The notes under the pieces are model-generated. The model had not been told where the DNA came from. It did no database searches and worked only from the letters and a program-made list of their open reading frames with translations. A stretch of DNA of 64,000 nucleotides, taken from contig JAEMQU010000002.1 of NCBI GenBank assembly GCA_016463705.1, positions 25,834 through 89,833 on the forward strand, read 5' to 3'. Positions 4,945 through 20,377 of this stretch are shown one piece after another. The translations under genes and the position numbers were made by a program. Every line of letters starts with the position of its first letter. The stretch's first letter is position 1. The stretch is from Opitutales bacterium. Its GTDB lineage: Bacteria; Verrucomicrobiota; Verrucomicrobiia; Opitutales; UBA953.

Positions 4945-5802
4945 ATGTTACTCTTCAAGCGCATTTCGGTAGTGGGGGCAGGTTTAATCGGCGGGTCCAT
5001 CTTATTAGCAGCGAAAAAACGAAATATTTCGGCGCAGTTCTCGTGTTGGTCTCATTCTCCTGCTTCACTCGCTTTTTGGTCAAATCTCGGCTGGGTAAAT
5101 GGACACACCTCCTTAAAAGATTCAGTCAAAGATGCCGACCTTGTGATCATTGCAACGCCTGTGGATAAAATAGGTGAAACTTTTGTGTCCCTCGCTCCAT
5201 TTTTAAAACCCGGTTGTTTAATCACCGATGTTGGCAGCATTAAAGGTGCGGTTTTAAAGGCGGCTTCAGTTTTACCTCCCTCGGTTAATTTTATTGGCTC
5301 GCATCCGATGGCGGGGTCGGAAAAAGCCGGCGCACGAAATGCCCACGCCGATCTCTTCGAAAATAGATTTTGTTTTATTACTCCAGGCCCCCACGACCCG
5401 GCCGACTCCGTCCAGAAAATAGAACAGTTTTGGCAAAGTCTTGGTTCTAAAACTTTTCTTTGCAGTGCGGAAAAGCATGATGAAATTGTGGCGGCGATTA
5501 GTCACACCCCCCACGCCAGTGCCGCTGCTTTAATATTAGCAGTGAAAAATCTCCCTGGTTTTAAACCAGCGGCGGTCGGCGCCGGCTTAAAGGACTCCAC
5601 GCGGATTGCGGCGGGCGAAGAAAATCTTTGGGTTGGAATTTTACTAGCTAACGCAACCCACGTTGCCCAAGGCTTAAAAGAAGTTGAAAAACAAACGGCC
5701 GAACTGCGCACGATCATTGAGCGTGGCGACGCAGCGGCCTTAAGTAAAATCTTGGCGGCGGCCAGAATCGCTCGTCAATCGTTGGATCAAACTCATGAGT
5801 GA
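4945..5802 (+). CDS. tyrA: prephenate/arogenate dehydrogenase
   Basis: TyrA oxidatively decarboxylates prephenate (or arogenate) on the way to tyrosine. The 285-residue protein begins with the NAD(P)-binding motif GAGLIGGS at 11-18, then DVGSIK at 95-100 and SHPMAGSE at 119-126, and an all-helical C-terminal dimer domain. There is no chorismate mutase or ACT domain. Its last 8 bases overlap the start of the aroA-cmk gene. The order tyrA-aroA-cmk matches the aromatic supraoperon known from Pseudomonas, where the fusion point is different. Confidence 0.93.
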   Translation: MLLFKRISVVGAGLIGGSILLAAKKRNISAQFSCWSHSPASLAFWSNLGWVNGHTSLKDSVKDADLVIIATPVDKIGETFVSLAPFLKPGCLITDVGSIKGAVLKAASVLPPSVNFIGSHPMAGSEKAGARNAHADLFENRFCFITPGPHDPADSVQKIEQFWQSLGSKTFLCSAEKHDEIVAAISHTPHASAAALILAVKNLPGFKPAAVGAGLKDSTRIAAGEENLWVGILLANATHVAQGLKEVEKQTAELRTIIERGDAAALSKILAAARIARQSLDQTHE

Positions 5803-7816
5803 ATCCTACCTGGTTAAGCCTTTTTGCTCACCCGCCCAAGGAGTCGCCCAAGTTCCAGGTTCTAAAAGTATAACCAACCGCGCCCTTATTTTAGCAGCGT
5901 TGGCTGATGGAGAAACGCTTTTACGAGGGGCTCTTTTTAGTCGGGATACCGAAATTTTAATTACTTCATTAAAACAACTAGGATTTTCTGTAGAAATAAA
6001 TAAATCGTTGCACACGATTAAAATTGTTGGACTGGGTGGTAAAATTCCTGCTCAAGAAGCAAAATTACATGTCGGTAATGCGGGGACGGCGGCGCGCTTT
6101 TTAACCGCCTTTCTTACCCTCTCAGAAAAAGGTAAATATTTTTTAGACGGGGACGAGGCGATGCGCCAACGCCCCATGGCCGGGCTGATCAACGCACTGC
6201 GCTCCTCGGATAATTTCGCCCATGATGTTTACGGTAAAGAAACGCTTTCGTTTCCTTTTACTTTATTCACTTCGGGGTATTTAAAAAATTGTGAAGTTGA
6301 TGCTTCGGCTAGCTCACAATTACTGTCCGCGTTGTTGATGATTTTACCGTTAAGTTCAGGGGCTAAAGTTTTGATGAACGGTTCCACCGTGTCCGAACCG
6401 TTTGTGCAAATGACTGAAAAAATGTGTGCTCAGTTTGGTCGCCCTATCACCCAAGTTAATCCTGGAGAGTGGCGTTGTGTAAATCCTGGTTCTTTTATTT
6501 CACCCGGGATTTATGATATTGAGCCCGACGCGACAGCAGCGAGTTACTTTATCGCCCTACCCGCTTTAAGTGGAAAAAATTCGTGCGTCAGGGTCAGCGG
6601 GTATAATCCCAAAGGGCTTCAAGGAGACACCGCATTTGCAGGAGTGGCCCAGGCCTGTGGGGCTGTTCTCAACAACGAAAATAATGCTTTAGTCATTAAT
6701 CACTGGCCTGAGATCCAAGGCGGGACGTTCGATTTTAATAATTTTTCTGATACTTTTTTGACGCTTGCGACCCTTGCCAGTCTAGCGAATCAACCGACCA
6801 CGATTAAGAATATTGGTCATACCCGAAAACAAGAAACCGATCGGATGTTAGCCATGGCGACCGAACTGGAACGGCTGGGAATAAAAACTCAACCGACCGC
6901 TCAAGAATTACGCGACAACGACACTCTTTCTTCATTAACTATTTTTCCTAATCGCGAAGCACTTAAAGCCGCGTCCGCGCAGAAACCGGTTTCCATTCAC
7001 ACCTACGAAGACCATCGTATGGCGATGAGCTTTGGGATTTTAGGTTCATTTGATTTATGGGGTGATGGTCGGCCGTGGATTGAAATTTTAGATCCCCGGT
7101 GCACGAGTAAAACCTTCCCCCTCTTTTTCTCTGCTTTAGAATCTCTCCGCACGCAGTTTGTGAGCGTTGCCGTTGATGGTGGCGCCGCCTGTGGTAAATC
7201 CAGTACCTCGCGTACCCTTTCCGAAAAATTAGGTTTTTTACATATCGATACAGGTGCCCATTATCGTAGTTTAACCCAAGTTTTACTTCAGAGTTTTGTT
7301 AATCCCGAGGACACTCGTGCCATCAATAACTCTTTAAGTAAAATTAAGCTTTCTACTTTTATTTCGGGTAACTCCGCCCTCTTGGCTTTAAATAATAAAG
7401 TTTTAAGTGAAGCCGAGTTAAGAAGTGCCGTGGTGAATGCATCAGTCTCCCAATTTGCGGCGATTCCTGAAGTCCGAGCCTTCATTCTCGCTTATCAAAG
7501 AAATCAAGTCCACGTGGCTCAACAAAATGGTTTTGCGGGACTCATTATGGAGGGGCGGGATATTGGGTCGGTCGTCTTACCTCAAGCCACCGTCCGAATT
7601 TATTTGGAAGCGGAGGCCTCGGCGAGAAATCAAAGAAGAAAAGATGAAGGGATTATGGATTCAATTGTCCAACGAGACAAAATTGATTCTTCGCGAACCG
7701 CCGCACCACTGATCTGTGCGGAGGGCGCCATTCGAATCGATAACACTAATCTTTCTTTATCGGATGTCGTAGCAAAGATTGAGAAAATCATTTTAGCGGC
7801 GGGCCGAATCCCATGA
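5795..7816 (+). CDS. aroA-cmk: bifunctional EPSP synthase / cytidylate kinase (AroA-Cmk fusion)
   Basis: This single 673-residue reading frame joins two enzymes. Residues 1 to about 445 are 3-phosphoshikimate 1-carboxyvinyltransferase: PGSKSITNRA at 21-30, NAGTAAR at 95-101, RQRPM at 124-128 and DHRMAM from 406. From about 457 there is a CMP kinase with P-loop GGAACGKS at 462-469 and EGRDIGS from 586, a Cmk hallmark. It thus serves both the shikimate pathway and pyrimidine nucleotide supply. The codon frame runs through the junction without a stop, and the second half has no obvious start of its own. It overlaps tyrA by 8 bases and plsC by 4 (ATGA). Confidence 0.95.
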   Translation: MSESYLVKPFCSPAQGVAQVPGSKSITNRALILAALADGETLLRGALFSRDTEILITSLKQLGFSVEINKSLHTIKIVGLGGKIPAQEAKLHVGNAGTAARFLTAFLTLSEKGKYFLDGDEAMRQRPMAGLINALRSSDNFAHDVYGKETLSFPFTLFTSGYLKNCEVDASASSQLLSALLMILPLSSGAKVLMNGSTVSEPFVQMTEKMCAQFGRPITQVNPGEWRCVNPGSFISPGIYDIEPDATAASYFIALPALSGKNSCVRVSGYNPKGLQGDTAFAGVAQACGAVLNNENNALVINHWPEIQGGTFDFNNFSDTFLTLATLASLANQPTTIKNIGHTRKQETDRMLAMATELERLGIKTQPTAQELRDNDTLSSLTIFPNREALKAASAQKPVSIHTYEDHRMAMSFGILGSFDLWGDGRPWIEILDPRCTSKTFPLFFSALESLRTQFVSVAVDGGAACGKSSTSRTLSEKLGFLHIDTGAHYRSLTQVLLQSFVNPEDTRAINNSLSKIKLSTFISGNSALLALNNKVLSEAELRSAVVNASVSQFAAIPEVRAFILAYQRNQVHVAQQNGFAGLIMEGRDIGSVVLPQATVRIYLEAEASARNQRRKDEGIMDSIVQRDKIDSSRTAAPLICAEGAIRIDNTNLSLSDVVAKIEKIILAAGRIP

Positions 7817-8458: not shown

Positions 8459-9586
8459 TTAAGAAATTCTTTGCGGCATGACGACGCAGAGAAAATCTTC
8501 TTTTAATGCACGCACCACGCCAGGAGACATGTCGTCCTTAAACTCGAAATCAATTTCATCTTCGGTTAACGCCTTCAGTGGGTCGATGACGTAACCAGGG
8601 TTGAACGCAATATTTACATCAGGGCCGTCGTATTTAACGGCGATGAGTTCTTGGGATTCACCGGTTTCAGATTTGGAAGAAATTTCGAGATTTTGTGTTT
8701 TCTTGGAAACGGAAAGACGAACGGTGTTATTACGATCGTCGCACATCAGCGAAGCCCGGCCAACGGTATCCAAAAACTTTTCTCTTTCGAGACGAACTTT
8801 ACTACCGGCATCTTTCGGAATCACTTGGCGGTAGTTAGGATAATTGCCTTCAACTACTTTTGAAACGAGTTGAATGCGATCCACTAAACCTTCGTCGTTT
8901 TTCGGGATATCGATAATAAAATTAACCTGTCTTTCGTTGTTTAAAATATGGGCCTTGCTGCCTGACTTGAATAAACGCTGTAGCTCGGCAATGGTGCGGG
9001 CGGGTAAAATAAATGAGAGGGGCTTGTCGGGGCCGGCTAATTCTCTTTCACACTTGGCTAAGCGACGACCATCGGTGGCAACCACGGTGAGCTTTCCGTT
9101 AGCGAATTCAAAAAATACTCCGTTTAAAATATAACGATTTTCGTCGGTAGATTGGGCGTAGCTGACTTTTCTTAACATGGAACCCAAGTCATCTTGTTCG
9201 ATAGAAATTTTCGACTGACCAGAAAATGTTGCGAGCGGCGGAAATTGTTCGGCGGATAAACCAACGACGTGAAAAACTGAACTGCCTGAGGTAATTTTTA
9301 CGCGATCTTTACCAGTTAATTCCAAAGTGGCGTCGCCATTCGGCAGAGAGCGAATAATTGGAACGAGGCGCTTAATCGGTAAAGTTATTTTTCCAGGTGA
9401 TGAAACAGAAGCTTTGACGCGGGCACAAATTCCGAGATCTAAATTCGTGGTCGTGAGGGTGACCGTATCGCCTTCGGCTTCAATTAATACATTTTGTAAA
9501 ATTGGCATGGTGGCGCGACTGCCAACGACATTGGTTACGCTCGTGAGACCCGTGAATAAATGATTTCGGTTAACCTTGAACTTCAT
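8459..9586 (-). CDS. dnaN: DNA polymerase III sliding clamp, beta subunit
   Basis: DnaN is the ring-shaped processivity clamp. I place the start at the ATG at 9586, giving MKFKVNRNHLFTGL and 375 residues, close to the usual ~366; an upstream ATG at 9625 would add a 13-residue leader not typical of the family. Features include the AVSVSSPGKITLP-like domain 1 core (SVSSPGKITLPIKR), NRYILNGVFFE and VATDGRRLAK in domain 2, and the C-terminal VMPQRIS, which matches the usual MPMRL-like end. dnaA is not next to it here. The 255 bases upstream look like a possible replication origin. Confidence 0.96.
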   Translation of the reverse strand: MKFKVNRNHLFTGLTSVTNVVGSRATMPILQNVLIEAEGDTVTLTTTNLDLGICARVKASVSSPGKITLPIKRLVPIIRSLPNGDATLELTGKDRVKITSGSSVFHVVGLSAEQFPPLATFSGQSKISIEQDDLGSMLRKVSYAQSTDENRYILNGVFFEFANGKLTVVATDGRRLAKCERELAGPDKPLSFILPARTIAELQRLFKSGSKAHILNNERQVNFIIDIPKNDEGLVDRIQLVSKVVEGNYPNYRQVIPKDAGSKVRLEREKFLDTVGRASLMCDDRNNTVRLSVSKKTQNLEISSKSETGESQELIAVKYDGPDVNIAFNPGYVIDPLKALTEDEIDFEFKDDMSPGVVRALKEDFLCVVMPQRIS

Positions 9587-9654
9587 GATGAGGCAAGCAT
9601 GGGAGACGTCAGGGGGGAGTGGCAATCCTTCAATAAATACAAATACACACTGAG

Positions 9655-9840
9655 GTTATTATATATATCTTAATTAATTAAATACATTAGTATCAGTAGA
9701 TGTCGGAAATCCGTGTATAAGAGTGCAAGCCGTTGAGTTAGGGGGATATGGGATTTATCCAGCGCTGTGCCCAACAGGTGAATAACCCAAGGTTTATTAA
9801 CACCGCCTTCCAACCACAGTTTTTTCACCACCTATTAACA
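9655..9840. other. candidate replication origin (oriC) or DnaA-binding region upstream of dnaN
   Basis: The gap 9587-9841 contains no gene. It has an almost pure A/T tract at 9655-9690 and near-consensus DnaA boxes (TTATNCACA, counting N as free): 8 of 9 at 9712-9720 (minus), 9777-9785 (minus) and 9794-9802 (plus), and 7 of 9 at 9755-9763 and 9832-9840. Read on the minus strand from 9720, the order is DnaA box, a GC-richer spacer, CTACTGATACTA (9699-9688, resembling DnaA-trio repeats) and then the A/T tract, as in the basal unwinding element of Bacillus subtilis. No box is perfect, so it might instead be a DnaA-regulated dnaN promoter. Confidence 0.45.
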
Positions 9841-9841
9841 G

Positions 9842-10729
9842 TTAAGAAACAAACTCATCATCTTCCGGCGCGGGGTCGGTTTCCTCCTTTTTGAGATAAA
9901 AAACATGTCTGATTATCCCCCAGGTGATGTAACCTAAAAATACCACCAGCATAGAAAACTCGCGAAATAAAAATAAGCCCAACCCGACTAAAATAATTAA
10001 CACAAACCCCTTACTTTTCGTGCGTGTATTCCAATTAATCATTTTCAGACTAGGAAAACGGACGTTACTAATCATTAAATAAGAAACGATAAGCATCAGG
10101 GGTAATAAAACCCAAGACCAAGATTTTAAAACCAAGTCCAGCCGATCATTCTGATTAGAAATATATAAAACCTTAGACAGGGCTAAAACGATGGAGGCGA
10201 TTAAACCTGCCGCTGCTGGGCTGGGTAGTCCAACAAAGTCTCCTCCGGCCGAACGCTTTTCATTTCCTGGAATCAAAGGATTGGTCAGCACATTATATCG
10301 GGCCAAACGAACCCCCACACATAACAGATAAATAAAAGCCAATAACCAGGTGGAGAGCTTGATGTATTCTTCGTTTTGATTGGGATTAATAATCAAAAAA
10401 CAAACCATCAACGCTGGTGCTACGCCAAAAGAAACCGTGTCCGCCATGGAATCGAACTGTGCGCCAAACAGGGACTCGCGGTGGGTGGCCCGAGCAATAC
10501 GGCCGTCAAACATATCACAAACACACGCGAAAATAATAAACCAAACTGCCATAATATAATGGTCGGAACGGGCATTGATATCCAGCCCGGTAAAATGAGC
10601 TTCAATACAATTTTTGATTGCCAGAAAACCGCATAACATATTCCCCGCGGTAAATAAGTTGGGGAGTAAATAAATATGGGCGGCCTCTTCAGCTGACTGA
10701 TAACGACGTGGTTCGGGCGGAGTGGACAT
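9842..10729 (-). CDS. pssA: CDP-diacylglycerol-serine O-phosphatidyltransferase
   Basis: PssA makes phosphatidylserine from CDP-diacylglycerol and serine, the precursor of phosphatidylethanolamine. I start it at the ATG at 10729 (MSTPPEPRRYQ), giving 295 residues; the frame extends upstream to 10780, but that would overlap the preceding gene. It carries the CDP-alcohol phosphotransferase signature D-x2-DG-x2-AR-x8-G-x3-D-x3-D at about residues 72-97 and about eight hydrophobic segments. The end is charged and acidic. It lies 4 bases after the stop of the RelE-like gene, so the two are co-transcribed. Confidence 0.92.
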   Translation of the reverse strand: MSTPPEPRRYQSAEEAAHIYLLPNLFTAGNMLCGFLAIKNCIEAHFTGLDINARSDHYIMAVWFIIFACVCDMFDGRIARATHRESLFGAQFDSMADTVSFGVAPALMVCFLIINPNQNEEYIKLSTWLLAFIYLLCVGVRLARYNVLTNPLIPGNEKRSAGGDFVGLPSPAAAGLIASIVLALSKVLYISNQNDRLDLVLKSWSWVLLPLMLIVSYLMISNVRFPSLKMINWNTRTKSKGFVLIILVGLGLFLFREFSMLVVFLGYITWGIIRHVFYLKKEETDPAPEDDEFVS

Positions 10730-18490: not shown

Positions 18491-20377
18491 TTAAGAAACG
18501 TGGGCCCTAAACAAAATCATGAGCAGCGATATGTCAGCCGGGTTAACCCCACTGATTCTACTCGCCTGCCCTAGATTAATGGGCTTCACCGCCACGAGTT
18601 TTTGTCGGGCCTCATTGCTTAATCCATAGGCCTTTAGAAAATCAAATCCCTGTGGAACCTTGAAATTATCAAGATCATGAAGTTTACGGGCAGATCTTAG
18701 TTCCCTGCTTAAATAGCCCTTATATTTAACCCGATAAAGGACCTCTGCCCTTACTTCGGGTGTTTCGGAGTTAAACGAAGGCGGCAGATCCGCGGGCGTA
18801 CTATCGATGTTTCTTCTTAGAACATCACCCGCTATACCCCCTGTTATATTAATCTTCTCCATGTATTCGACCCAATGGTTTACCCTTTCAACTTTGTGTT
18901 GAATCCGGCCCAAGCGCTCAGGGCTCACTAACCCGTAATTAGAGATTTTAGAGTTAAGTCTCAGCTCGGCGCTTCCGTGATTAAATAAAAGTCTGTATTC
19001 GGCCCGGCTGGTAAACATCCGGTAAGGCTCTTGGGTTCCCTTGGTTACCAGGTCGTCAATTAAGACACCAATATAGGCCTCATCTCGTCCTATAACCATG
19101 GGAGTCAAGCCCTTACAAACCGCTGCCGCGTTTACCCCGGCCACTAAACCTTGGGCGCCAGCTTCTTCGTATCCCGAAGTACCATTGATCTGACCGGCAA
19201 AGAATAAACCCTGAACCTTCTTGGATTCAAGGGTTGGATAAAGCTGGGTGGGCGGTGCAAAATCGTATTCAACGGCATAGGCCGGTCTTAACATCACAGC
19301 TTTTTCTAAGCCCGCGATAGAATGAAGCATTTCAAGTTGAACCTCAAACGGTAAGGACGTTGAAAGCCCGTTGATATACCATTCGTTGGTATTTCTGCCT
19401 TCAGGTTCTAAAAAGAGCTTATGGCTTTCTTTTTCGGAGAACTTAACAAACTTATCTTCAATCGAAGGGCAATAGCGCGGACCGACGCCTTTGATCTCGC
19501 CGCTGTAAAGGGGAGAGCGGTGGAGGTTTTCTTGGACAATCTTTCCTGTTAGACTCGTAGCCTGGGTCATCCAGCACGAGACTTGGTTGGATCCGGGCGT
19601 CCAGCCGGGGAGGGTTTGACCCGAGTGTTCCACGTGGAACAAGTCGCCGTCTTGGCGCGTGTCATGGAATGCAAAAAGAGTAGGGGATTGATCACCCGCT
19701 TGCTCTTCACATTGTGAGAAATCAATCGAGCTTCCAAGGATTCTTGGAGGGGTACCGGTCTTGAGTCTTTGCAACTCAATACCAGCGTCTAAGAAACTGC
19801 TGGACAACGACTTAGCACTAAAGTCGCCCAATCTTCCGCCCTCGGTTTTATTGGAACCTATATGCATTAGACCTCTTAAGAAAGTACCCGTCGTGACGAC
19901 CACGGTTTTAGAGTAGAAGGATAAATCTAGGTTGGTGTTTACGCCAACAACTTTGCCGTGATCAAAGATGAGGCCGGTGACCATGGCCTGGAAAATAGTA
20001 AGTCCGGGCTGAAGTTCGCAGCGGTGCTTAAGGCGGAACTGATAGGCCTTTTTATCACACTGGGCGCGGGGGGCTTGAACCGCGGGGCCTTTAGATGAAT
20101 TGAGAAGGCGCCATTGGATTCCGGTAACGTCAGCGGTGATTCCCATTTCGCCGCCCAGGGCATCGATTTCTCGAACAATGTGACCTTTGGCTTGGCCCCC
20201 AATGGCCGGGTTACAGCTCATTTGAGCAATGGTATCAATGTTTCCGCTCAGTAATAAAACATCCACACCCATGCGCGAAGCGGCTAAGGCGGCCTCAACT
20301 CCAGCATGCCCAGCCCCGCAGACGATTACGTCATAGGGCTTTTGTGGGCCGAGTCTTATTTCTTTGGCGGGTTGCAT
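18491..20377 (-). CDS. mnmG: tRNA uridine-34 5-carboxymethylaminomethyl modification enzyme MnmG (GidA)
   Basis: MnmG binds FAD and NADH and, with MnmE, modifies the wobble uridine of certain tRNAs. The 628-residue protein has the dinucleotide motif [15 protein letters not shown] (about 20-34), [20 protein letters not shown], and [13 protein letters not shown]. Between PTLFAF and the QVSCW segment it appears to carry about 18 more residues than Escherichia coli MnmG (compared from memory), including FHVEH, which is coded by a perfect parS-like DNA site. The start is preceded by AGGAGGA inside an inverted repeat. mnmE lies 27 bases upstream on the same strand. Confidence 0.97.
19626..19641. 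other. parS-like centromere site inside mnmG
   Basis: TGTTCCACGTGGAACA is a perfect 16-bp palindrome matching the parS consensus bound by ParB. It lies within the mnmG coding frame, where the minus strand reads out as part of FHVEH. It is about 1.16 kb from the second site at 18464. Such sites are usually close to the replication origin. Confidence 0.85.

Follow-up and report, generated by a model that had tools for sequence, protein, structure and literature searches.

Where does replication of the chromosome start in this Opitutales bacterium? The question is raised by a gap beside dnaN in the window, i.e. the whole 64,000-nucleotide stretch analysed here, which covers bases 25834-89833 of contig C46 in a genome of 1.47 Mb in 63 contigs (MAG). 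The dnaA of this genome sits on another contig and encodes a protein with N-terminal, AAA+ and helix-turn-helix domains. The nearest named relatives of this genome are MAGs of uncultured Opitutae/Opitutales. Judging from sequence comparisons, the 255-base gap between dnaN and a pssA-like gene is very probably the chromosomal oriC (Table 1). The original prediction, a candidate origin with a DnaA-trio-like order of elements, is supported by the conservation of these elements, by the skew switch in relatives and by the rare parS nearby. The identification draws on the conserved sequence, on parS and on the other relatives, and not on the GC skew of two congeners (G034 and G019) described below. 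About 60% of the coding sequence on the right was thought to run away from the gap and we measured 57-62%; on the left, 59-70% is directed away from it. Elsewhere in the window (5795-7816), one ORF is an apparent fusion of EPSP synthase (aroA) and cytidylate kinase (cmk), as judged from its translation alone.

Table 1. Features of the putative origin and its surroundings, in positions of the window.
Feature	Position	Strand	Remarks
dnaN, DNA polymerase III beta clamp	8459..9586	-	Pfam PF00712, PF02767, PF02768; conserved ATG at 9586
Putative oriC: intergenic gap separating dnaN from the pssA-like gene	9587..9841 (255 bases)		Densest DnaA-box stretch of the window
A/T-rich unwinding element (putative)	9655..9694		Overlaps the trio run; least stable 40-nt duplex in the window
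DnaA-trio-like run CTA CTG ATA CTA ATG (complement 3'-GAT GAC TAT GAT TAC-5')	9685..9699	-	
12-nt spacer GATTTCCGACAT	9700..9711	-	TTCCG conserved; from alignment
Unwinding-proximal DnaA box TTATACACG (genus majority CTATCCACG)	9712..9720	-	8-of-9 vs TTATNCACA; conserved
Weak half-site TTGGGCACA	9766..9774	-	Conservation limited to CACA core
DnaA box TTATTCACC	9777..9785	-	8-of-9 vs TTATNCACA; conserved
DnaA box TTATTAACA	9794..9802	+	8-of-9 vs TTATNCACA; conserved
DnaA box CTATTAACA	9832..9840	+	Adjoins pssA stop; conserved
pssA-like CDP-alcohol phosphatidyltransferase	9842..10717	-	Flanks the gap; Pfam PF01066
parS palindrome TGTTCCACGTGGAACA, inside mnmG	19626..19641		9.8 kb from the gap; sole match in the genome

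The non-coding gap holds more DnaA boxes than expected by chance. The three 8-of-9 boxes that had been claimed are indeed there as matches to TTATNCACA (at 9712, 9777 and 9794), where dinucleotide shuffles of the gap give 0.42 (p = 0.01); the chance expectation of about 0.2 boxes offered with the claim was about twofold too low. The pattern TTWTNCACA matches four times against 0.73 expected (p = 0.006), a number reached by no other 255-nt stretch in the 64 kb. The box count stands under the degenerate consensus TTATNCACA, but the strict TTATCCACA has no match in the gap at one mismatch or fewer, the best box agreeing with it at 7 of 9 positions. Hence, the significance of the cluster, when taken from this single sequence, is moderate.

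Conservation tells the real boxes from the chance ones. We aligned 55 dnaN-upstream regions, from the window and 54 relatives, which left 43 sequences after dereplication. Among these 43, mean column conservation is 0.70 for the whole gap, 0.94 for the box at 9832, 0.97 for that at 9794, 0.86 for that at 9777, 0.79 for that at 9712 and 0.78 for the trio run. Two further boxes of the original prediction, TTATCCAGC at 9755 (column conservation 0.37) and TTTTTCACC at 9821, show no conservation in the alignment and were rejected as chance matches. The four boxes, the spacer, the trio-like run and the A/T tract are common to about 50 related gaps. Since the scores of the box at 9712 and of the trio run are modestly above the background, the order in which the proximal elements are kept, i.e. 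box, TTCCG, CTAC..CTA and GTATTTAT, carries more weight than the column scores. Most members of the genus retain this box, the TTCCG and the CTAC..CTA run, and the genus-type trio run is absent from a few distant members of the alignment (L209-L211, L213 and L218). At the level of the order, 19 relatives have 35 boxes ahead of dnaN against 6.8 expected, and in most of them a box stands some 92-133 nt upstream of the gene, with a run of the ATAATAAGAATA type after it. Two members of the order from two families, G042 (L126) and G052 (L135), have no DnaA box before dnaN, and their origins may have moved. Relatives carry TTGTTCACA and CTATTCACA where the boxes of the window read TTATTAACA and CTATTAACA, respectively. 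The TTATTAACA site is also found in the dnaA promoter, which suggests from sequence comparison that the DnaA of this lineage accepts it.

The elements closest to dnaN follow a standard layout. Read in the sense of dnaN, on the minus strand, the box TTATACACG is followed by the 12-nt spacer, by CTACTGATACTAATG and by the A/T tract. The predicted CTACTGATACTA run between box and tract is present on this strand at 9688-9699, and the predicted tract (9655-9690) is equally borne out, since among all 63,961 positions the 40-nt window with the weakest duplex starts at 9655. The combined pattern of box, spacer and trios occurs only once in the genome, although it was derived from the site itself. A published program for the basal unwinding system (BUS) allows up to two mismatches to TTATCCACA in the box and up to 16 bp of spacer, and asks for three or more 3'-NAN-5' trios (PMC8287927). 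Here, the box TTATACACG has two mismatches, the spacer has 12 nt and there are five trios, so that the gap would count by its sequence as a BUS. These trios are degenerate: two of the five are exact 3'-GAT-5' and the stricter [G/A]A[T/A] also fits two of five. A second tandem box is the most common arrangement in BUS but lies outside the published requirements (PMC8287927), and the alignment shows no conserved partner in tandem with the box at 9712.

Relatives place the orthologous gap on the chromosome. We sampled G040 (2,633,965 bases) as 20 stretches of 20 kb. Its GC skew takes negative values between 1.04 and 2.23 Mb, and positive ones from 2.40 Mb across position 0 up to 0.93 Mb. The cumulative minimum falls at 2,293,674, within the 20-kb stretch holding dnaN and 121 bases beyond the edge of the dnaN-pssA gap (2,293,277-2,293,553, between the end of dnaN at 2,293,276 and the start of pssA at 2,293,554). 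The skew switches back between 0.93 and 1.04 Mb, at some 1.3 Mb from dnaN in either direction. In contig C4 of G057, a closer relative whose dnaN is 80% identical, the skew at fourfold sites goes from about -0.1 to +0.1-0.27 across dnaN and the 20-kb skew minimum is at most 2 kb from the gap. G055 and G046 likewise show a change of sign close to dnaN, their local minima being 5-9 kb off. The orthologous gap lies at or near a GC-skew minimum in four relatives, and the pattern is reversed in G034 and G019. In these two congeners (G034:C1, L037-L044; G019:C7, L142-L148), whose contigs span some 60-75 kb on each side, GC skew goes from positive to negative across dnaN, both raw and at fourfold sites, opposite to G057 and G040. 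Their AT skew at fourfold sites also goes from positive to negative, with the same polarity as in other relatives. The 98-kb contig C46 itself shows a flat to weakly positive GC skew with no V at the gap, and its weak local minimum is about 12 kb to the right. Coding direction confounds the skew in the window and on congener contigs, and at fourfold sites it is still weak or reversed in some of them, so we did not use it as support for the genome under study.

The parS motif gives a second landmark. Parts of the original prediction hold here: an exact palindrome lies at the expected distance, but it is one site and not several. A parS is expected to be a rare 16-bp palindrome, TGTTNCACGTGNAACA, close to the origin. 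It occurs, as TGTTCCACGTGGAACA, once per genome in G000, G019, G040 and G046 and twice, 48-1184 bases apart, in G034, G016, G055 and G057. In all eight genomes searched (seven relatives and that of the window) it lies 10-22 kb from dnaN, and a reversed-pattern control gave zero matches in the eight. The parAB genes are near oriC in many bacteria. Here, ParB genes (G040:C1:984888-985163, G055:C1:2527121-2527393 and G000:C13:41052-41327) are far from the origin-proximal parS. The parB of the closed G040, at 0.985 Mb, coincides with the GC-skew terminus, 0.3 Mb from dnaA.

One might argue that the boxes serve a promoter under DnaA control, that of dnaN or of pssA, with no origin involved. DnaA boxes do regulate genes, and the dnaA promoter of this genus has conserved boxes without trios. 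Besides, a conserved promoter-like TTGCC block is found between the A/T tract and dnaN (9596-9625 in the window, minus strand), at a distance of 18 nt from a hexamer, CATGCT, whose end is some 9 nt ahead of the dnaN ATG. By their sequence, these two elements look like a promoter that would yield a nearly leaderless dnaN transcript. Yet, regulation of this sort leaves unexplained the order of box, spacer, trios and A/T tract, the skew switch in relatives and the proximity of parS, and we regard it as very improbable when put forward without an origin. Origin and promoter roles may coexist in the gap.

Even fainter is the prospect that the source species initiates at dnaA or elsewhere with the dnaN gap left behind as a relic. 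In favour of this one could invoke the conserved boxes upstream of dnaA (TGTTAATAACCTG; CTGTGAACAACC), the uninformative skew of the contig itself and the two congeners with reversed GC skew, but it is at odds with boxes and a trio run kept over about 50 species, unexpected of a relic, and with the distance of dnaA from the skew minimum in G040 (1.0 Mb) and from dnaN in G055 (250 kb). A better origin near dnaA had been named beforehand as the finding that would count against the gap, and the region upstream of dnaA offers none. The 420 nt upstream of dnaA in sequences of the genus (L052-L081) contain conserved boxes, TGTTAATAACCTG/TTAATAACCTGTG and, immediately before the start, CTGTGAACAACC, plus a CAACGACTT block; the trio run and A/T block are absent from them. 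These boxes are likely to serve autoregulation. In the closed G040, dnaA lies at 0.68 Mb, inside a replication arm. We thus rejected an origin at dnaA.

How would an origin in the dnaN-pssA gap work? In B. subtilis, the proximal box directs DnaA to the trios, and the strand is stretched by the DnaA oligomer (PMC6669920, PMC8287927). From this species, H. pylori and others (PMC6669920, PMC8287927), we infer DnaA binding, filament growth and unwinding at the gap. DnaA, encoded elsewhere, would use its helix-turn-helix domain to bind the four conserved boxes. A filament starting at the box at 9712 would grow past the spacer and cover the trio-like run (9699-9685) as this becomes single-stranded, melting the adjacent A/T tract. 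Helicase could then be loaded, with two forks leaving in opposite directions. The distal boxes (9777-9840) might help to load or to regulate DnaA.

Our search of a literature library for a paper on oriC in Verrucomicrobiota found none. The results provide a comparative, order-level assignment of the origin in a mostly uncultured group, in which searching beside dnaA would mislead. This enables estimates of replication rate from metagenome coverage and makes it possible to test the box-trio layout at the bench in Verrucomicrobiota. It leaves the known picture of bacterial origins unchanged. One might speculate further that in most families of the order dnaN and parS keep the origin close to them, with dnaA and parB far away, and that GC-skew polarity around this same origin is reversed in some congeners; we hold this tentatively, and rather doubt it. 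If true, the distant dnaA and parB would mean that initiator and partition genes are replicated late.

A dnaN-adjacent oriC with dnaA elsewhere is an arrangement already known from cyanobacteria, where oriC usually adjoins dnaN and dnaA is encoded separately (PMC6323995, PMC7198777). As in Synechococcus elongatus, the putative origin lies beside dnaN, away from dnaA and at the shift point of GC skew, the latter being seen here in relatives (PMC7198777, PMC6323995). Cyanobacterial boxes are of type TTTTCCACA, whereas those of the gap are of the TTATNCACA and CTATNCACG types, and neighbouring genes and phylum differ; the likeness is one of arrangement and we do not claim common descent. In Helicobacter pylori, oriC2 likewise has boxes, a spacer that contains GC, a DnaA-trio and an A/T-rich region in this order, but the oriC of this species is bipartite whereas our reading of the gap involves a single part (PMC8235120). 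BUS are predicted in origins of many phyla, and the 12-nt spacer falls within the published peak of 10-13 (PMC8287927, PMC6669920). The gap shares with the BUS of Bacillus subtilis the succession of a box, a spacer and at least three 3'-NAN-5' trios, followed by A/T-rich DNA (PMC8287927, PMC6669920). It differs from it in having one clear proximal box instead of a tandem pair, more degenerate trios and a location that is not beside dnaA.
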